64,000 nt of DNA from Craterostigma plantagineum (Eukaryota; Streptophyta; Magnoliopsida; Lamiales; Linderniaceae): the NCBI GenBank assembly GCA_027422505.1, contig JAPQWV010000006.1, positions 9,910,501 through 9,974,500 of the forward strand. Reading direction: 5' to 3'. The notes below the pieces were generated by a model. It was not told the DNA's origin. It made no database searches and saw nothing but the letters and a program-made list of their open reading frames with translations. A program made the position numbers and the translations under genes. Below are positions 8,520 to 39,203 of the stretch, one piece after another (positions within the stretch are counted from its first letter, which is position 1; each line of letters begins with the position of its first letter).

Positions 8520-11260
8520 TATCGGTACTTCCTTCCAAAAATTAAGTACTTTTCTCTCGATTTTGGGTATTTACCTTGAAAATTCAAGTACTTGATATGA
8601 TTTTGGGGTGAAGTTGGGAACAAGCTCTTTTAATTATGATGGTGGCGATCAATGTCATATCATGTGTGATTTATGATGTAAATGGTTTAAGATCATGCTT
8701 GGTAAGGATATTGATCATCAACAACACAAAAAGAACGTTTCTTGCTACTTTAGCTTTTAACCAAGACAAGTACTTGAATTCAATGGTAAAATACCTAAAT
8801 CGGGACAATAAATACCTCAATTCGGGACAAAAATACCTACATTTACGCGAAAAATACTTATTTATTGGGATGAGACATCTACGAATAAAATGGTTGATTT
8901 TAATAAAAGATGATGCTTGGTAAGGATATTGATCATCAACAACACAAAAAGAAGGTTTCTTGCTACTTTAGCTTTTAACCAAGACAAGTACTTGAATTCA
9001 ATGGTAAAATACCTAAATCGGGACAATAAATACCTCAATTCGGGACAAAAATACCTACATTTACGCGAAAAATACTTATTTATTGGGACGAGACATCTAC
9101 GAATAAAATGGTTGATTTTAATAAAAGATGATGCTTGGTAAGGATATTGATCATCAACAACACAAAAAGAAGGTTTCTTACTACTTTAGCTTTTAACCAA
9201 GACAAGTACTTGAATTCAATGGTAAAATACCTAAATCGGGACAAGAAATACCTCAATTCGGGACAAAAATACCTATATTTACGCGAAAAATACTTATTTA
9301 TTGGGACAAGACATCTACGAATAAAATGGTTGAGTTAGTAAAAGATCATGTTTGGTAAGGATATTGATCATCAACAACACAAAAAGAAGGTTTCTTGCTA
9401 CTTTAGCTTTTAACCAAGACAAGTACTTGAATTCAATGGTAAAATACCTCAAATCGGGACAAAAATACCTATATTTACGAGAAAAATACTTATTTATTGG
9501 GACGAGATATCTACGAATAAATGGCTGATTTTAGTAAAAGATGATGCTTGGTAAGGATATTGATCATCAACAACACAAAAAGAAGGTTTCTTGCTACTTT
9601 AGCTTTTAACCAAGACAAGTACTTGAATTCAATGGTAAAATACCTAAATCGGACAATAAATACCTCAATTCGGGACAAAAATACCTATATTTACGCGAAA
9701 AATACTTATTTATTGGGACGAGACATCTACGAATAAAATGGTTGAGTTTAGTAAAAGATCATGCTTGGTAAGGATATTGATCATCAACAACACAAAAAGA
9801 AGGTTTCTTGCTACTTTAGCTTTTAACCAAGACAAGTACTTGAATTCAATGGTATATACCTCAAATCGGGACAAAAATACCTATATTTACGCGAAAAATA
9901 CTTATTTATTGGGACGAGATATCTACGAATAAAATGGTTGATTTTAGTAATAGATCATGCTTGGTAAGGATATTGATCATCAACAACACAAAAAGAAGGT
10001 TTCTTGCTACTTTAGCTTTTAACCAAGACAAGTACTTGAATTCAATGGTAAAATACCTAAATCGGGACAATAAATACCTCAATTCGGGACAAAAATACCT
10101 ATATTTACGCGAAAAATACTTATTTATTGGGACGAGACATCTACGAATAAAATGGTTGATTTTAGTAAAAGATCATACTTGTTAAGGATATTGATCATCA
10201 ACAACACATAAAGAAGGTTTCTTGCTAGTTTTGCTTTTAACCAAGGCAAGTAATTGAATTCAATGGTAAAATACCTAAATCGGGACAAATACTGATTGAT
10301 TTTCATAAGAGATCCAACATGGTAAGGATATTGATCATCACTGACATAAAAAGAAGGTTTCTCGCAACTTTAGCTTTTAACTGAGACAAATACTTGAATT
10401 CAATGTCAAAAATACTTGAAGTTGGGACGAGACATCTACGAGTAAAATGGTTGATTTTCATAAAAGATCTTGTTCGGTAAGGAAATGGATCATCTCCAAA
10501 CAAAAAAGAAGCTTTGCCTCCGCTTTCTATTTTAACCGAGTCAAGTACTTGGATTCAGGGTTAAAATACCTAAATCGAGACGCAAAATACCTAATTTCTG
10601 GCCAAACGTACCCACATTCATTCAAGAAATACTTGTAAGTTGGGACGAGAGATCTACGAATAAAATATCAGTATTTGTGCCTCAAATTGAGAATTTTGTC
10701 TCGGTTTAGGTATTTTATGTTTGAATTCAAGCTTCATTTTGTTGAATGTGAAGATGCGGGAAGACGTTTCTTTTATGTTGGTGATGATAAATGTTCGTAC
10801 CATTTTAAGATGTTAGATGAAAATCTGCGATATTATACTTCGGTGGCACACTCACGTTTTTAGTATTATATGTGTAAACATTAGTATTTTATGCCACAAA
10901 TTGAGTGTTTTTTTGTCTTGATTTAGGTATTTTACGCTTGCATTCAAGTACTTGACTTAGTTGGAAGTAAATATGCGGAAAACATTTCGCTCGTATTTTA
11001 TGCATCTATTTCGGTATTTTTGGTTTAAGTATTTTTCGTCACGTATAATACTAGTATGTCTTTTTTATGACATTTAAATGCATTCACCATAAAAGATTTA
11101 TTAATAAAGCATTCCTTTTTATCAAAATACTCCTTCCAACTACCTGTACTTTTTGCGTCAAGATTGGTATTAATTGCTCAAATTAAGTACTTTTGCTTTC
11201 ATTTTAAGTATTTAATCTACAATTTCAAGTATTTTGTGTCATGTTTTGCAGAAATTACGA
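8520..11260. repeat. 21-bp-period repeat field, with inverted flanks
   Basis: Across almost 2.7 kb the sequence repeats with a 21-bp step built round TACTT/TACCT (or AAGTA on the other strand). The central part (8692..10660) runs in one orientation and contains the 218-bp higher-order array. The left flank (8520..8615) and right flank (about 10660..11260) carry the reverse complement: 'GGTATTTACCTTG..AATTCAAGTACTTG' at the left mirrors 'CAAGTACTTGAATTC..GGTAAAATACC' in the centre. No termini with target duplications were found, so the element class is unknown. The long open frames through the array have a repetitive product and no start or codon bias that would mark a gene. Confidence 0.85.
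8692..10480 (+). repeat. Tandem array of ten 218-bp (or 196-bp) units
   Basis: The marker GGTAAGGATATTGATCATC or a close variant recurs at 8701, 8919, 9137, 9354, 9550, 9767, 9963, 10181, 10321 and 10476. The spacings are 218, 218, 217, 196, 217, 196, 218, 140 and 155. Each full unit contains five consecutive 21-bp sub-repeats opening with TACTT or TACCT. The 196-bp units lack exactly one sub-repeat (217 minus 21). The last two intervals are shorter and more diverged. Internal units differ at only a few positions, which suggests recent expansion or homogenisation. Confidence 0.95.
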
Positions 11261-19490: not shown

Positions 19491-20196
19491 TTCGCACTGG
19501 ATAATTCTATACAGACCCCCTATATTCTATTGAGAACCCCTATTAATTATCACACAATTAAATGCAGCTTTGAAAACTATGTTTTTTACCAAATATAAAT
19601 TAACTAAAATCTTTTAGGACTTTTTCTATGTGAACGTCCTTGAATAACACATTAATCAAGTTCCTAGCTAACTTCTTCATACATGTTTGAATGACTATTA
19701 AATAAATATACACATTATAATTTTATTACTTTGTATACATGTTCTTGTATAAATTGAAGAAAAACTAATGTTTAACAAATCTCACTTTCCATAATATTTA
19801 CTTCTATATTTTTAATTTCTAAAAAATGTGAGAGGAATATTATGTTATTTAAGAATAATTTTTATATTGGACTAATAAACTCCTAATTCTTTTTCCAAAT
19901 ATTTCGCTTCAGGTTCCTGACTTTTTCAGCTGCAAGCCTGCAGACAATGGAGAAAGTAACCTACATGCTTATATAAGTTGAAATTCCTGAAGTGTGTCAC
20001 TAGCCAAAAAGCTAACTCGTTTCGAATTTCGCAACATCGAGTTTCATGAACAGCTTCTTCCTTCGATTCGCTTCAAACTCTTCAGATATATATACTTTGT
20101 CGACGGTCTTACTTAGTTTCAACTCAATATATGTCTACGTAACTACGACAAACCTCAACCTCGGTCTAAAAATGTAATATAGAACCGAAAACCCCA
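19491..20196. other. Region downstream of the PLC-X gene
   Basis: AT-rich with no second gene recognised. The part adjoining 20197 probably holds the 3' UTR and poly(A) site of the minus-strand PLC-X gene. Confidence 0.4.
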
Positions 20197-23100
20197 TCAC
20201 GACAGAAACAAATAAGGCAGAAGCATTATTACTGCAAAAAATAATCCGTGGATCCCAACCGACGACGGAGAATCTCCGGTCAACTGAACGGCCCCCGAGA
20301 AGCTTCCGGAATTGCTGCTATCGACGGGGGAAGCCGAGATTGGTGCAGACATCGTCTTGCAACTTCCAAAAGGCTCTCCCGCCTGTAATAGAAAGAAAAC
20401 TTTTGTTCTTATACGTAAGCGTTAGCTAACCACTTTCACTTAACAGTCTGTGTTTGGTATGAAGAAAGCAGTGTGGAGAAGAAAATTAGAGGGAATGTGT
20501 TTTAATTAGTTTTTCCTTGCGCTTTCCTCACTATTTTGCGAAGAAAATAGTTTTCCTTGCCTTTAAATACTGGATTACTATTCACCACCCCCTTTTTACT
20601 AGTCACCGTCCCCTAAAGGGCGATAAAAACGACTTTGCCATTTTGAAAAAAATTTATATTTAAAGCCCTTTTCCAGACAACACTTTCCATATCGCAATCA
20701 TACATCCAAATCAGACTAAAAAAACAAGATATACTCAAATCGCAGTGGATCGATCAATCATCGACAGGGGAAAGGAAAAGGGTCTATTCGCACGACTGAT
20801 AAGCAAATTCTCGTAAAATCGTTTGTACGTAGATGAATTATCGAACAGGGGTCGGAATCGTTTCAAAAAAGTCCCGATCGAACGAATTTTTGGGCCGACG
20901 CATGCAGTCGAAAAATATTTTGCACAATAGCCAGGCACAAATTATACTGCTCCATTAGGTACAGCTAGTGATCCAATCGACCCTGATATCTGCTTTTCCA
21001 ACCGGCAACTCGACCATCACGATTCGTGAACCAATACGGATGTAAGACGGGCATAGGAAACGTTGGACATAAGTTAAGTCTAATATAATGCTGATAATTA
21101 TCTTCAAGGTGCGCCATGACGATCATACGGCTCGGTCCAGTAGCAGTCCGACCGGCACGCAGTGGCAATATTATGTTCGAATGCATGTTGATGTTCGACC
21201 AATTGCCGTACCCGTAGAGGATAATTACAGCGTTCCAAAGCCACAGATCACACGGTGTCGACATCCAGTGGTTCATTCGACAAGGCCCCCTTCCCAACGT
21301 ATACGATTCACCTGCATTTCCAATGACCATAGTACAATGCCGAGTAACGCTCCCAGTGGGCTGCGAGTTCGTTCGCGACGTGATTCCTTATGGTGATCCA
21401 TTCGTCCTCGTCATTGTAAATATGATGTGCGATAACGCGAAAGCCACAGTTGCCGTCAGCAACCACATTCTTATAGCTAACTATATATGGATGGATGGTT
21501 GTTGTTATGCAATTCGCCAAGTAGGTGTGGTAGAAGTCTGATTCACCTATAGAACACATTTTTCAGGATTAGATGTGCATCCGTGTTGAACGAATTTACG
21601 AGTAAAAGATAGTAGTACGTGTCTCCGTAGTAGATCCACGAGAGTGCTTCGCAGACCAAGATGACGTACGACCCTGCCTGCTACGACTAGTACTGCTGCG
21701 CGTCCACCCCTTGGGATTGCGTACTTCCAAGCACTTCGATCCCGCTTCGTCGAGTTTTTTTCTTTCGACCCACCTTTGACTAACGTATTAATGACAGGCT
21801 CATTGCGTCAGGATACAGATGATCGTGGACGATCGATGGAGGCCACGCATAACGGCGGAATCGCGGCCTTCTGTCTCACGCACGAGGTCGCATAAGTAAT
21901 CCCGATCAGAAATATCGGGAGTTACTCCCTCACCGATCGTAAGTGTCCTTCAGAAATCGTGCACGAAGTCTACAGCAACTGGATAGTTGTTGTCGACACA
22001 CTGTCGAAGCTCGCATGCACATGGGAGCTCGTGCGTACGTCGTACCACACATCCGCACTCGGAGTAAACCTCATCCGCCAACTCTTTAGCACGCCTCAAT
22101 CCAGTTCCCATTATCGATATTGAATGGTGTGAAACTCCGAACAATATTGTGTGGAATGGAAATCCTGATTTCCCAATAGGTCGTTTCGAGCGGGACTCTT
22201 CCAGTGCCATAACATAAAAAATTATTAGATAAGGATTTCGTTTGACACGTAATAATAATTAATTTATCTTTCTTATGCGATTCAGTTGGTTCTGAATCTG
22301 CTCGTGCACCTTCACCCACACGGTGTCAAGAGACCCAGTGGCCGAGTTCAACCATTGCTTCAGCTCGCTGTGAGGACTCTCCACATGATATGTAGTGGTG
22401 TACCAACCATGTGGCGTCAACGTACTGGACGATAGCGGGGTGGGCTACCCAACGCAGAGACATGTCATTATATGCCTGCTCGTATGCGTCATCGTCGGAG
22501 CTTCCACGACATCTTTCCAGGCTTTATGCGACTGCTTTTCAGGTCTTATGCGTCAGTCGCATAAGGCCTGGAAAGATGTCGTGGAAGCTCCGACGATAAC
22601 GCATACGAGCAGCCATATAATGACATGTCTCTGCGTTGGATAAAGCCTGGAAAGCAGTCGTGAAAGCTCCGACGATAGAGCATACGAGCATGCATATAGT
22701 GACATATCCCAGCGTTGGGTAACCGACTCCGCTATCGTCCAGTACGTTGACGCGACGTGGTTGGTGCATAAGGAGAAGTTCGTCAAAGCTTGGACGAGCC
22801 ACGTGCTTCATTTCAGTTACACCACTACATGAAGTGTGGGGAGTGCTCACAGCGAGCAGAAGCAATGGCTGAACTCGGCCACTGGGTCTCTTGACACCGT
22901 GTGGGTGAAGGTGCACAAGCAAATTCAGAACCAACTGCATCGCATCATAAAGGTAAATTAATTATTATTACGTGTCAAACGAAATCCTTATCTAATCCTG
23001 AAAAATGTGTTCTACAGGTGAATCAGATTTCTACCACACCCACTTGGCGAATTGTGCAACAACAGTCATCCATTCATATATAGCTAGCTATAAGGATGTG

Positions 23101-26100
23101 GTAGCTGACGACAACTGTGTATTTCGCGTTATCGCACATATTTACAATGACGAGGACGAATGGATCACCGTAAGGAATCACGTCGCGAACGAACTCGCGG
23201 CCCACTAGGAGCGTCACTCGGCATTGTACCATGGTGAGATTGGAAATGCAGATGAATCGTATACGCTGGGAAGGGGAGCCTTGTCGAATGAACCACTGGA
23301 TGTCGATACACCGTGTGATCTGTGGGCTGTGACGACACTTTGGAACGCTGTAAATATCCTCGACGGGTACGGCAATGGGTCGAACATCAACATGCATTCA
23401 AACACAACATTGCCACTACGTGCCGGTCGGGCTGCTACTGGACCGAGCCGTACGATCGTCATGGCGCACCTTGGAGATAATTATCAGCATTATATTAGAC
23501 TTAACTTATGTCAAGAGTTTCCTATGCTCATCTTACATCCGCATTGGTTCACGAATCGTGATGGTCGAGTTGCCGGTTGGGAAAGAAGATATCAGAGTCG
23601 ATTGGATCACTGGCTGCACCTAAAATATTGTGACTATCTATTGTGCCGACCGAAAATATTTTTTTCGGCCGTGCCATGAACCGGCCCAAAAATTCGTTTG
23701 ATCGGGAATCTTTTTCAAACGATTCCGACCCGTGTTCGATAATTCATCTACGTACGAAAGATTTTTACGAGAATTTGCTTACCAGTCGTGCGAATAGACC
23801 CTTTCATTTCCCATGTGTATGTCGTCGATCAATTGCGATTTGAGTATTTTTTGTTTTTTTAGTCTGATTTGAATGTATGATTGCGATATGAAAAGTGTTG
23901 TCTGGAAAAGGACTTTGAACAAAAATTTTAATTCAAAAGGGCAAAATCATCTTTTTATCGTCCTTTAGGGACGATGAATAGTAAAAAGAAGGCGGTAAAT
24001 AGTAATCCAATTTTTTTTTTCCTTACCTCGTTTCGATCATCGAATTTCTTTGTGTATGTAATTTTCAGTATTTCGTACCGAAATTATATATAGACGTTAG
24101 TTTTTTCTTTTTAAATTAATTTAAATATCATAAGGGCAAAATCGTCTTTTTACAGTTCTTCAGGAGTGATAACAAGTAAAAAGGGGCGGTGCATAGTAAT
24201 TCCCCTCTAAATATAAACCCCAACTAGATTTTCTTTCTTGTCCTCGTCTATTTCACAGAACGTAGAAACTGCTTTTCATTTTCCTTTTGTTTTCGTTTCC
24301 CTACTAATCCACAAACTATAAGATGTTAAAGGGGTGTATCACTTTTATATTTTCCAACACGCTGAAGTCTAGTTTGGTCTTTGTTTCGTAGGTTTTGAGG
24401 ATTTGAACCCAATATGCCCACTTCATCTAAAAGATATTATATATGTATCACTTTTTTATTTCCAAAAGCAAGAAACTCATTACCTTGCAAGCGGCGATGG
24501 TATTGCATCCGCACAATGTCCTTCCATTCGTGTGATCCAAACCGTCGAAAACGCCTCCCCCGTCGCTTCTCTGAGAAGTCACAAAAGAAAAAAAAATATA
24601 AGAACAACAAAGTAAAAATTTATGTTTGCAACAATTCTAATACAAGGAAAGTCCCATTACCATGTAGAAGTTCACCGCAAGAAAATTAGGCATTTTGTTC
24701 CCAGCTGATTTATAGCACGTAGACACCATATCAGCGAGCGGAGCAGAATGCTCCTTGCAAGCCTCGCTCTCAACAGGAATCGTCGGGAAATAGTTCATCA
24801 GAATCAGCGATGAGCTCTTAGAATTCAAAGCCTTCAATTCCTTACGGTTATGGCACGAACCCTGTTGCACGCCAGGGTCCCCAGCTGTAAGACAATCATA
24901 AAAAGATAAACTTTTTTAAGTTTCCGAAAAATTCAACGTTCTTCATCAATAACGATAAAAAAACTCACTACTTACGCTCGTTTTCAAGCATATAGTTCCA
25001 CAGATATGCGATTTCTTCTGAGGCCTCTTTCGAGGGATCGGAGGTAAAAACGAGAAGCCGTCGATTACTTTGAACCATGGAGTTAACAATGGGCCAATCT
25101 TGGCCTTTCTTGGGCATTTCCTTAACTGGGAACCAATATTTGTCCAAACCAGCATCAGTAAACAGCCTCGTTAAACCCTTTGGGGCGCGAACGTAATCTT
25201 CGATTATAATAGTCACGATCTCCTTTGGATTTTGAGCCAAGAATGCTTCGATTTCTCTCAGTGTATTGATGGCGGGTCCCTAAAATTTCATAATTATTGC
25301 TGTTAAGACTGCTATTTGTTTTCGAGACAAACATTTTTGTTTTTCTTACAAAGGCTGTGAAGTTGTAGCACTGTCCCTGAAACGAATGGCAAAGCCAGAC
25401 ATCGTTCTCGAAATCGTACATGTCGAGCATTAATCCCCTCACACCATTCTACAGTGAGAGCTTAGTCAAATCAGTTTAATTACCAAATCAAGATTATTAC
25501 ACATGACTAAAGAAAGAAAGCTTATGCAGCTGTATGAACACAAAGGGCCAAGAAATATTTCACCATACCCTCAATTGATTAGTGACAGTATCTTCTTGAT
25601 TGTAGAAAGTAACTCTTTGAGGACCACTCACCAAAGGCGCATCAACGATCGAAAACGCATTGTGAGTCACCAGCCAAGTGTACTTATTAAAGGGCAGCCC
25701 ACTAATCTGTAAAAAGAACAAACCATCCTTAAAAAAAAAATCTTGAATATATATGATCAACTACAGAAATAAACCATAACTGAAGTATTACAATTGAAGT
25801 TGGTATTGTGGCTTGACCCCTTATGCAAAAAGGTTGAGTCTTTGCAAGTGAAGGGCAGCTCCCACAGTAAAGACCTGAGCCACAATCAGTGGCAGCTGAG
25901 CAAGTTTCAAGGAGCTGCAAGAAAATTGATTTCTTTGTTCTTGTAATAAATCTGCTCAAACCCACCTAGTAAATCGACGCGAAATTGCAAGAATCAGCAG
26001 AAATAAGGTACCTGACAATTCCCATTAGAGCAAGCAGTTGAAGTCGTCGACAAGAATATCAGTGATATTAGGTTTAAAAAAATGTAATATATTCTGCTTT

Positions 26101-26131
26101 TGATGCAAATATTCATGGCTCGAAGAACCAT
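20197..26131 (-). CDS. PI-PLC X-domain protein (At5g67130-like), secreted, probably GPI-anchored, 8 exons
   Basis: Eight exons on the minus strand join in frame: 26131..26012, 25914..25792, 25706..25569, 25448..25350, 25279..24976, 24884..24661, 24570..24484 and 20382..20197. All introns are GT/AG. The product is 426 residues. Residues 1..33 form a signal peptide (hydrophobic 'YYIFLNLISLIFLSTTSTA'). A Cys-rich segment follows ('CSAATDCGSGLYCGSCPSL'). The X domain has both expected histidines: His96 in 'VTHNAF' and His148 in 'LCHS', plus 'GVRGLMLDMYDF' and 'EIVTIIIEDYV'. The C-terminus has a Ser/Gly-rich linker and a hydrophobic tail 'GLFFAVIMLLPYLFLS', typical of GPI attachment. The family cleaves or binds phosphoinositide-type substrates, though the plant members' reaction is unproven. 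Intron 7 is 4.1 kb because of a MULE remnant. Met6 (26116) is an alternative start. Confidence 0.93.
20965..22230 (-). pseudogene. MULE transposase C-terminus: SWIM-like and OTU-like domains (left arm)
   Basis: On the minus strand a segment (about 22210..21950) encodes 'CGCVVRRTHELPCACELRQC', the Cys/His-rich SWIM-like motif of MULE/FAR1 transposases. It is followed at 21559..21308 by 'VADGNCGFRVIAHHIYNDED' then 'WITIRNHVANEL', the catalytic Asp/Cys start of an OTU cysteine protease domain (D-G-N-C). A further segment ends with 'HYIRLNL' and 'LHPYWF', where the OTU histidine is expected. The pieces lie in different frames with stops between, partly old introns and partly decay, so no intact product is likely. 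A transposase carrying its own deubiquitinase-type domain is an uncommon but known combination in plant MULE-derived proteins. Confidence 0.7.
22700..23679 (+). pseudogene. MULE transposase and OTU-like remnant (right arm)
   Basis: The plus strand first shows the transposase words 'YVDATWLVHKEKFVKAWTSH' and 'SLDTVWVKVHKQIQNQ', which in MULE/FAR1 proteins lie after the catalytic core. From 23005 an OTU-like segment follows, 'VADDNCVFRVIAH' and 'WITVRNHVANELAAH', then a stop (TAG) and a continuing frame to 23679. That frame ends with 'HYIRLNL' and 'LILHPHWF'. Compared with the left arm, the glycine of the D-G-N-C motif is replaced, and the SWIM-like segment is absent. It is a diverged, broken copy of the left arm in inverted orientation. 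Confidence 0.7.
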
Positions 26132-35300: not shown

Positions 35301-36221
35301 TTCTCGGGCCGATACCATGCTCCTTTTCTCTTATTCCCTAGAGAGGTTTCAGAGATTATCGATTTGAAGAAGTTCATGGTTATGGAATTCGAACCCAAGG
35401 CCGTGCTCCTCTTCTCACTGTCTCGATATAAGACCAGATTATCGTTGGAGAAGTTCCCTTCTAGGCGCTCCACTTTCCAGCCGTTCTTACGAGTGTACGA
35501 GATTATCTATGGAGAAGTTCACAGCAAGATCCATGCCTCCGTCTTAAATGTTTTGAGAGTGTCATAGTTGAGAAATAGGTTCTTTTGATCTGTTTGTTGT
35601 GCGTTAAGCATTCCTCGTGTGCGTTTTTCTCCTCATTTTGTCATCTTTTTTTTATTCTCCCCCTCATTTTCTTGATTGAATATCCCGTCCAAATCATTAA
35701 ATCGTCTGTTGAAGGCATAAAGGGTTTTCAATTGAAGAAAAAGAATTTGGAGAAAGCTCAAAATGGATGACTAAAGGTAATCTTAAAGGAATGAAAATTT
35801 AAATTTGGCCAATTGAGGAATTTCCTAAGTGCCCTAATCATTTTCGGAACGATCTATTACACGGCAACTATGAGGCCGAGAATCACAAGTTAAAGACAAG
35901 CAATTAATTTGTGACTCACTCAAGTTAAGATCCGACGAGAGTAATAACTAGAATCCTCACTTATATGAAGTGGTTTTGTGTCTTAGTGGAACAAACTCAA
36001 TGCCTAAGAAACACAAGAATGCGACTGAGACTTTCAAAATTTAAGCAAGCAATCAGTCTCATGTCAGTGAATTCTAATCGTGACGTAGATCGAGAATCCT
36101 AAAGATATCGTCATACCCCTAATATTATACTTACATATATATATATATATAAATGAAAAATTTCACGCAAGATATAACATTTGCTAAGTATAGAAAACAT
36201 ATAGCATAGAATACGTGAAAG
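32340..36221. other. Non-coding 3' region of copia-B
   Basis: Long AT-rich stretch with dense 'CGAGAAATTTT' and 'TTTTCGATCGA' motifs (32700..33300, 33660..34030). A purine-rich motif in complement (GCTCCCCCTTTG, 34092) could be a second polypurine tract. Four loose ~90-bp repeats carry 'AGATTATC...GAAGTTC' (35260..35520). No protein domain was recognised. Confidence 0.55.
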
Positions 36222-36226
36222 CACAT

Positions 36227-39203
36227 TGTGACGCCCCGCCATCTACTACTATTTTCTTACGCTAACTTACGTGAGTAAATAGAATATAAAATATATTACA
36301 TATAAAACACCGATAGAATTTTTCGATTTTACAAAGCACACCACACACAACTATTTTACAATACAAACATTGTTCAGATTTTACATACAATACAAACGTA
36401 TTTTACAAAAACACACATAATTAAACATGACGCCCGCCTCACAGGTCGCATCCATGTACACACCACCCTCAAAAGTCACCGAAAGTTCCAGAAGGACCAG
36501 CCTCGTCATCTAAACATTTACGTACCGGATTCGCTATGTGTACAACACATAAAAACATGGGATGAGCTATAAAGCTCAGTAAGTAGAAATGTGCATGTAT
36601 GCACGTGCCAAAATAGCAAAGGCATCCGCGCCAATGCTTTCTAATACTATCCTCACATCATACTCATTCTTTTCTCATTTTCACCGGGGCCCATAGCTAC
36701 TTACTAACCGTACCTTCATATCATGAGCTTAAATCCTATACGGATAAACATACGATAGTGGCCCACTCTGGCTAGGATAAGATTAGGGTTTATCTCCAAT
36801 CTTATCATTCACCAGGTCGCCCCTCTAGCACGTCACTTTCCTGGCACTATAGTTCATACTATGTGCCTTCCCATTACCTAAATAATTTAGGTAAATATAT
36901 TCGACGGTCTTACCCCCATCATGGTGCCTTTGTAGAAGTAGCTATATTCTCATTTATCTACATTACATATAACTCACTTTCAACTCGAGTAACACAATGC
37001 ATGCTCATTCCTCAAATCAATATGATTCGTGCGTGCACATGATCATGCTACATAAATAATGCGACCATAAATATTCCAAACAATCGCATATAACAGATAA
37101 TTCACATACCACGTATTCATCGAAGCAATTAGTCACATAGCGATACACATATCAATCAATTTATGTGTTGTAGGTGAAATTCCCACTTACCTGGTATCCT
37201 TAGCTTATCGCACGGTTAAATCGTTAACCTTCGAATCCTAATTATAAAAACATATAAAATCATAGTTCATTAATTTAGTTACAATTCCATGAAATTGGTT
37301 AAATTTGAAAACCCTATTTTCGACTTAAAATTTCGAAACCCTAAAATTCCAAATTTGACTTAAATTAAAAATACCATTTTAAATTAAATCTCGAAATTTA
37401 ATCTCGACACCACCTTTAATGTGAATGTCGAGCTTCTTACTATAATATATAATATTTCTAGGTTAAATCTCGATATGAATTAAATAGATCTCGAGTCGAG
37501 AACTCGACATTACATACGAGGTTCGACATTTAAACTACATAAAGATCTCGACATGTATTTACAAATAAATCTCGAGATCTCATGTCGACATTTTATAAAT
37601 TTCAAAACAACCTCACACAGAGATCTCGACATCTTCATAATAATTTCGAAATCTTCTTCAAACTCTTATTCGAGATCCTCAACATAACATTTCGAAATCC
37701 CACATAAACAATCTCGAGATCACCTTACTCAAACACTCGACATTCTTCTCAAATATTCATTTAATATTCATAAAACTCGAATCACAACAATATCGAGATC
37801 TTGTTTCGACATTTTTTTAAAAATGTATCTCGATATCTCATGTTATAATATATATATATATATATATATATCGATATTATAATTCGAGATTATCACTTCA
37901 CATTAGACTTCGACATTTATATATAAATCTCGACACTCTCATAAAAATTTCGAAACCTTCTTTGATAATTCTTCGACATTTTACCCGATATTTATCAAAA
38001 TTTCGAACCACTTAACCTAACACTTCGACATATTACTCGGTATTCCTTTTTAATATTTATAAAACTCGAAATAAACTTCACATAACATGTCGACATCCTC
38101 ATAAGAATTTCAAAATCTTCCTCGACATCTTCTTCGACATTTTCATAAAACTCGAACCAACTACATATAATCATTTCGAAATCCTTACAAAACACTATTT
38201 AATTCTTAACCCTTATAATCTTTCGATCAAAACCTTATCTATCATGAACACCTTAATTATCACAAGAACACTTTAAATATCATATCAACTCTAAATGATG
38301 TTCTTCCCTTTTCAAAAATCAAAACCCTAAAGAACATAAACTTACGTGAATTTCATACTTAATAACATTAATATATACCAAACCCTAATTAAAACATAAA
38401 TATCTTAGTAAATTCCGTACCTTATTCGTAAACTTTGTTCCCAGTTTTCCTCTCCTCTCACTTCCTAATCTTTGTAAAATGATAATGAGATGCTCTCCTC
38501 TACGTTCATATCTCAATGCCAATTATTGTTATTTCTTTAATCCTAAATGGTTTGGTATTTTGTCTTTAGCCTTTAAAGTTTTGGATTTTTCTTCTCATAC
38601 TTGTTATGCATTAGTTCCTAAAGAATTGTAACGTTTACCTAATACATTAGTTAAAATCTCGAGAATTGTAACATTTCACAAGCCACATATTAATTTTTTA
38701 TGTGTTTAGTTAATCTTTATTCATAAAATCTCGAGATCTATACCATAAATTCCCCCATCGATTTCTAACAAAATCTCGAGCTATACTTTGAAAATTATAA
38801 TAAAGATTTCGAAGCACAATCTCGAGTTTCCTAAGAATTTCAAATCACCTCACATAAATATCTCGACATTATTTTCGAGATCCTCTTTCGACATCCATTA
38901 AAAATCTCGAAATCTCCTTACACATACTTCTCGACATTCTCTTCACACTAACATTTCGACATTCTCATTCAAATTTCACTTCAATCTTCATTTCGACATT
39001 TTCCTAATTGTTACCAAAAATCTTTCGAGATTCTTATAGAAACACTATAAACTTCAACATTGAACAAACCCTAAATTTCAAACTTATAATATTAGATATC
39101 ATGTAGTCACGAAATTAAATAAATACTAAATATAAAATCACATAGCCACATAATATGCATGCAAATTTATTGGCCAACTTACTTACGGGACCCGGGTATT
39201 ACA
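36227..39203 (-). mobile_element. Solo Ty3/gypsy-type LTR, 2977 bp
   Basis: Plus-strand ends are TGTGACGCCCCG and CCCGGGTATTACA, flanked by a perfect 5-bp duplication CACAT (36222..36226 and 39204..39208). On the minus strand it starts TGTAATACCCGGG, like the 12323..15080 LTR, and shares the 'CTCAAAAGTC' region and 'GAGC..AAAGCTC' segments in complement. It has no coding interior, hence a solo LTR. The interior is crowded with CTCGAGAT, TTCGACAT and TCGAAATC motifs (37380..39000). Confidence 0.93.

Follow-up and report, generated by a model that had tools for sequence, protein, structure and literature searches.

An inverted duplication within a Mutator-superfamily element in the last intron of a Craterostigma plantagineum PI-PLC X gene: a possible source of small RNAs

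We analysed a 64,000-nucleotide stretch of the Craterostigma plantagineum genome (hereafter the window; contig JAPQWV010000006.1, C6 in the numbering used here, C6:9910501-9974500) that carries, on its minus strand, a gene for a protein resembling the PI-PLC X domain-containing protein At5g67130. A single insertion of the Mutator superfamily (Mutator-like elements, MULEs) fills most of the last intron of this copy of the gene. The inserted element is folded back on itself, with an inverted copy of part of its own transposase and OTU-like gene region, and its RNA may form a long hairpin able to feed small RNAs.

The host gene and the insertion in its last intron

Eight exons and seven GT/AG introns on the minus strand join into a single open frame of about 421 residues, the start codon of the model not being fixed and the limit of exon 1 lying at about 26131. 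Introns 1-6 are 70-120 nt each, and intron 7 is 4,101 nt long. At E<=1e-30 the 421-residue model finds 1399 homologues, of which the 120 listed are 67-79% identical to it at a query coverage of 82-100%; their names, where given, are plant, and many are called PI-PLC X domain-containing protein At5g67130. Because Pfam gave no PLC match, either for the model, where only CBM49 appeared below threshold (17.0 bits, cut-off 23.4), or for two exon pieces from the window, which had no match, the PLC-X name rests on the named homologues. Homology over the full length and a hydrophobic C-terminal tail, judged by eye, place the product among the glycosylphosphatidylinositol (GPI)-anchored PI-PLC X proteins. 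Since the frame is full again once the intron from 24483 to 20383 is removed, the intron that carries the element appears to be still spliceable. The original prediction of a PLC-X gene with a GPI-tail exon beyond intron 7 (20383..24483) is upheld by the GT/AG borders, the restored frame and the named homologues, and its placing of the insertion in the last intron, before that exon, holds as well.

The genome searched (1.71 Gb in 6262 contigs) contains four further close copies of the gene, on C32 and C14 (97%) and on C741 and C632 (91%). All four conserve the splice sites, and when their exons are joined the only stop is the one that ends the protein where expected, as in the window copy. With 2 differences in 1828 sites, C741 and C632 probably represent one locus present twice. 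On C32, C741 and C632 the two window flanks meet around a single CTTTAAATA, as expected of empty sites. A deletion on C14 joins 20418 to 24259 and, because it spans the site, makes this copy uninformative on a former presence of the element. In the window, the left CTTTAAATA and the right CTCTAAATA form a 9-bp target duplication with an 8/9 match, a length within the 9-11 bp of the Mutator superfamily. Empty sites and target duplication together set the limits of the element at 20570-24204, which is 3,635 of the 4,101 intron nucleotides; the limits first proposed, 20440..24320, were right in that the element almost fills intron 7 and give way to these exact ones. The gene model, the element and the insertion are solid as far as sequence comparison reaches.

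Downstream of the insertion (19800-20418), a divergence of 5-6% separates the window copy from C32 and C14, against 1.6% between these two; upstream of it all three are about 2% apart. The excess divergence at 19800-20418 may reflect either recombination or a locally raised mutation rate beside the element.

Anatomy and relatives of the element

The element has two kinds of ends, A and B, and three ends in all (Table 1). Fifteen inverted pairs lie in 19500-25500, and those that form the two halves are 83-98% complementary. The folded-back arms that had been predicted are present, though not as two halves of ~1.7 kb: the left half (20565-22534, about 1.97 kb) and the right half (22554-24015, about 1.46 kb) are unequal because ~650 nt of the left arm (21575-22223) have no partner. 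The outer arms are 90.7% identical over 987 sites (92 differ). Identity, about 91% overall, rises inwards, from 88% in end B to 91%, then 92%, and finally 96% at the tip, where a later local copy lies. A 79-bp tandem duplication lies inside the right arm (22556-22713). Over 347 sites the two copies of end B agree at 88%. Where the internal end B joins end A, a short AATC-type overlap can be seen by eye, present both at the terminus of end B and in the inner part of end A. A stretch of ~97 bp common to ends A and B, 79% alike when end B of C28 is compared with end A of the window, and similar termini give the element the terminal inverted repeats of the Mutator superfamily.

Table 1. Features of the host gene and of the folded element, in window positions
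Feature	Position	Strand	Remarks
Exon 8, coding part	20197..20382	-	hydrophobic C-terminal (GPI-type) tail and stop; tail judged by eye
Intron 7 (last) of the PI-PLC X gene	20383..24483	-	4,101 nt, GT..AG; splice sites conserved in 4 other gene copies
Target site duplication, left copy CTTTAAATA	20561..20569	.	single copy in empty sites C32, C741, C632
End B (terminal, CTGGATTACTATTCACC...)	20570..20921	+	relatives, terminus, empty sites
Left arm: OTU-like region and transposase C-terminal half	20926..22530	-	gene sense minus, interrupted by stops
Hairpin tip, 19 nt	22535..22553	.	between central arms 22446-22534 and 22554-22642 (96%)
Right arm, inverted copy: transposase C-terminal part and OTU-like region	22554..23640	+	gene sense plus
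Second end B, internal, inverted relative to left end B	23641..24009	-	comparison with relatives
Last ~195 bp of end A (terminal)	24010..24204	-	joined to internal end B
Target site duplication, right copy CTCTAAATA	24205..24213	.	1 mismatch to left copy
Exon 7 of the PI-PLC X gene	24484..24570	-	gene model
Exons 6 to 1 of the PI-PLC X gene (24661-24884, 24976-25279, 25350-25448, 25569-25706, 25792-25914, 26012-about 26131)	24661..26131	-	model and homologues

The longest stretch between stops within the element is 156 residues, Pfam found no match in three fragments of its arms, and Rfam gave 0 matches in the window at gathering scores. The predicted fold goes beyond chance, with an energy of -2372.7 kcal/mol, compared with -1028 to -1039 for three shuffles that kept mononucleotide, not dinucleotide, composition. 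Of its 1505 pairs, 1128 span more than 300 nt, and 21 uninterrupted helices have at least 21 pairs, G-U included.

A whole-element search of the genome, which scored 40 of 6080 candidates and did not list every match, gave at least 164 family matches. The MULE transposase domain PF10551 is found in relatives and not in the window copy (L022, 2e-14; L018, 2.1e-11; L009, 4e-9; L015, 5.3e-8), so that the element belongs with MULE-type transposases through these relatives. On a fragment of a relative, downstream of the transposase, the best match to the OTU domain PF02338 reached 17.5 bits (E 0.006), below the curated cut-off of 23.3, and we therefore call this region OTU-like only. In the literature on OTU domains within Mutator elements, the OTU passage in the accessible text of PMC6431247 concerns Helitrons, and none was found in PMC6446971. 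Target duplications recognised by eye also frame other family copies (an exact 9 bp in L015, 8/9 in L020 and L022, 8 bp in L027); none was recognised by eye in L011 or the C28 copy. The 9-bp duplication, the paired ends and the transposase of relatives bear out the earlier identification as a MULE. What had been read as a folded-back MULE remnant can be refined to one insertion with three ends, in which part of the element's own transposase and OTU-like gene is repeated in inverted form.

In two further regions, L027:4171-7063 and L020:1243-4140, end B occurs twice, some kilobases apart and facing the same way, and inspection by eye shows target duplications around the outermost ends; these regions are perhaps further multi-end copies or nested insertions. 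Between the two end B copies of L020, at L020:2029-2760, lies a 244-residue open frame, which we take to resemble the plant mobile domain carried by some transposons.

Most family copies read have end A on the OTU-like side, and a subfamily has end B there, as in the window. The junction of end B with the OTU-like region (window 20850-20990) recurs nearly whole at 8 other places, on C11 (two), C30, C15, C3, C165 and C28 (two, inverted), and in a partial or weaker form at two more (C672, C4790). The C30 copy is plain and not folded back: it runs over 2.4 kb from end B through the OTU-like region and the transposase to end A and has an internal deletion of its own. The C3 copy shows no inverted arms within the 6.6 kb read, where its far end was not located. 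Measured against C30, the window element is without the N-terminal transposase half and has gained an inverted copy, joined to end A, of the C-terminal half of the transposase and all that follows it as far as the terminus of end B. Apart from the window itself, none of the matches listed by the whole-element search crosses this join of end B and end A.

Merging an overlap on C28 and three near-identical pairs (L018/L021, 97.8%; L015/L017, about 96%; L022/L023, 99.3%) reduced 20 family regions to 16 distinct loci, 17 with the window. Inverted arms of at least about 1 kb are present at 4/17 loci (the window, C28, C108/C130 and C4), a fraction that is not a genome rate, because the loci were picked by similarity to a folded query, and that may miss arms, because several regions do not show both ends. 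C4 moreover shares a flank stretch with C108/C130, which puts its independence in doubt. The C28 copy (L009/L010) resembles the window element in having the end B-OTU junction on both arms and inverted arms about 90-91% alike; it differs in having end B at both outer ends, longer arms and a spacer of ~5 kb that includes other sequence. The copies on C108/C130 (L018/L021) and C4 (L026) likewise have inverted arms with OTU-like and transposase sequence, 2.4-3.1 kb long and 92-93% alike, on either side of spacers of about 430 and 145 nt, but their recognised outer end is A, on one side in L018 and L021 and on both in L026. The two arms of a copy stand as sisters in the tree for C108 (100/98, starred), C4 (100/99, starred), C28 (92/77) and, only weakly, the window (56/67).

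The possibility that the whole foldback moved as a unit, raised by the end B-OTU junction that C28 shares, was dropped: the junction occurs in many copies, and C30 has it without a foldback.

Elsewhere in the window, a tandem array with periods of 196-413 nt and matches of 78-97% occupies 8689-10289, and 36001-39000 has a strongly negative GC skew (-0.26 to -0.49) at a GC content of 30-37% over 3 kb.

A proposed history and its rivals

We propose that a Mutator-superfamily transposon, of a family with a transposase and an OTU-like region, inserted once in the last PI-PLC X intron. The N-terminal transposase half would have been lost and an inverted copy of the other half, with end B, would have taken its place, when repair or replication was interrupted, changed strand at the hairpin tip and joined up with end A again through a short match. 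A single strand-switching event would at once account for the inverted arm, for the presence of a third end and for there being one target duplication, on the outside, and it is likely that a repair mechanism of this kind made the structure. The inverted duplication may predate or postdate the insertion: the arms differ at 92/987 sites and the non-coding parts of the gene differ from C32 at 46/803 (Fisher p 0.006), whereas transversions alone give no difference (31/987 versus 18/803, p 0.31).

When the host gene is transcribed, the intron RNA would fold into a long hairpin, imperfectly paired and made of transposase sequence, from which small RNAs against the element itself and its relatives could be diced, as reported for Mu killer against MuDR in maize. 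It is quite likely that the hairpin is transcribed; that it yields small RNAs of any size is a tentative prediction, somewhat short of an even chance, and effective silencing in trans is improbable. Exact matches to at least one of 19 related loci exist for 1257/3615 21-mers and 1062/3612 24-mers of the element, with 247-666 of its 21-mers matched per related locus, and small RNAs from the element, if made, could through these shared 21-mers reach the family. Taken as a whole, insertion, a foldback made by repair and an intronic hairpin able to feed small RNAs is the best explanation we can offer, and a reasonably probable one.

Several points weigh against a silencing role. The OTU part of the arms is 91% alike, and each arm is up to 94% like some other copy; with 92/987 differences in the outer arms as well, there is no sign that pairing has been maintained. 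Decay of the methylation type gives a mixed picture: C-to-T changes at CHH versus CG sites are shifted, with 33:15 here and 186:191 in 15 other copies (p 0.014 in a post hoc comparison), yet set against transversions the CHH changes show no shift (p 0.26). For Mu killer itself, the accessible part of one paper (PMC2563033) describes a perfect 2.4-kb hairpin processed into small RNAs, while that of another (PMC3440606) attributes silencing to short antisense transcripts, reported from plants with a silencing Mu killer, and disputes that read-through hairpins are its cause.

Nearly as probable as not is that the rearranged element is an inert, decaying insertion, spliced out with the intron and of no measurable effect. 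The gene frame and all splice sites are intact despite it, its arms diverge like unconstrained copies in a nearly star-like tree, and no open stretch in it exceeds 156 residues. Yet a long hairpin within a transcribed intron makes a good dicing substrate, and inertness sits less easily with one so long and with the many exact 21-mers that element and relatives have in common.

Rather less probable is that the element acts on its host, intronic heterochromatin altering splicing or favouring early polyadenylation and so a form without the GPI tail. Such effects are reported from Arabidopsis mutants, in which, according to the accessible part of PMC4417168, intronic transposons are associated with changed splicing or early polyadenylation when silent marks are lost. 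Reading on past exon 7 indeed gives VMSFLLLEIKK (11 residues) and then a stop, without a GPI tail. The stretch, however, lies upstream of the element and is identical in C32 and C14 (C741 and C632 differ there), which weakens the original prediction that the intron might favour an alternative last exon lacking the GPI signal; since these two copies have it without an element, the element does not create the GPI-less reading. A form lacking the GPI tail could thus arise in copies free of the element, whose influence would be limited to the proportion of that form. The accessible part of PMC6221933 contained nothing on the GPI tail of At5g67130.

As for the origin of the structure, two neighbouring or nested insertions of related elements, with no inverted duplication by repair, are unlikely, although the family is abundant in the search described above and the window arms are joined only weakly in the best tree (56/67) and not at all in a shorter alignment. 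One target duplication fits the outermost ends and the empty sites match exactly, the internal end B has no target duplication visible by eye, the tip is just 19 nt with arms there 96% alike, and large inverted duplications are present in other family copies also.

An assembly artefact, a read or contig folded on itself, had been named in the original prediction as what would undo the arms and is highly improbable: mirror-image copies on single contigs do exist in the assembly (C31, C88 and, by coordinates, C247), but the window arms are ~9% different and have a 650-nt gap, against 96-99% likeness in the C31 and C88 pairs, and target duplication and empty sites frame the whole element. On C31 (L015/L017) and C88 (L022/L023) element copies in opposite orientation, 96-99% alike, have matching flanks; on C247 the opposite orientation is known from coordinates only. 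All three are possibly assembly foldbacks or joined haplotypes.

Likeness to Mu killer and significance

One of the closest known counterparts of the window element is Mu killer (Muk), which in the accessible parts of two papers (PMC3440606, PMC2563033) has a partial inverted duplication of the transposase gene, a potential long hairpin and possible read-through from a host gene. The window element likewise contains a partial inverted duplication of its own transposase gene. It differs in several respects from Muk as described there. Both Muk ends derive from the mudrA-side end, whereas the window element has an outer B (left) and an outer A (right) with a second B inside; the Muk hairpin is perfect in one paper, whereas the window arms are about 91% alike; and the duplicated gene part is 3' in the window element and 5' in Muk. 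The window element also lies within an intron, unlike Muk, and its hairpin is a predicted fold. According to the available text of PMC2563033, Mu killer is a single derivative that arose in one maize line.

A second comparison is with the type 3 MULEs with multiple terminal inverted repeats described by Ferguson and Jiang (accessible part of PMC3310237), which carry an extra end on one side, an external target duplication and none internally, as does the window element (internally by eye). In type 3 MULEs the extra and external ends are alike over at least 100 bp, and ends A and B of the window element, alike at 79% over ~97 bp, fall just short of this; the extra end of the window element comes with an inverted arm, unlike theirs. 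Among literature titles and abstract openings, with most subscription papers outside the coverage, we found no intronic Mu killer-like element, and no match for foldback, Mutator-like, inverted repeat, small interfering RNA (siRNA) and intron together. By its structure the element is a new form of the Mu killer kind of rearrangement, for which silencing is plausible but unproven. That the family repeatedly makes Mu killer-like hairpins, of which one in a transcribed intron, driven by the promoter of the host gene, became a natural silencer of the whole family, is a bolder reading that we regard as quite unlikely.

Heritable transposon silencing has a well-known natural trigger in Mu killer, and the family described here is a further Mutator family with large inverted duplications of its own gene at several places (4/17 loci in a query-biased sample). 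Because the element was found in one of five gene copies, its reading as a silencer is directly testable, and the host gene offers a natural comparison with and without a 3.6-kb intronic hairpin. If small RNAs are made from it, how frequent such triggers are and whether host introns power them would become questions that can be asked.

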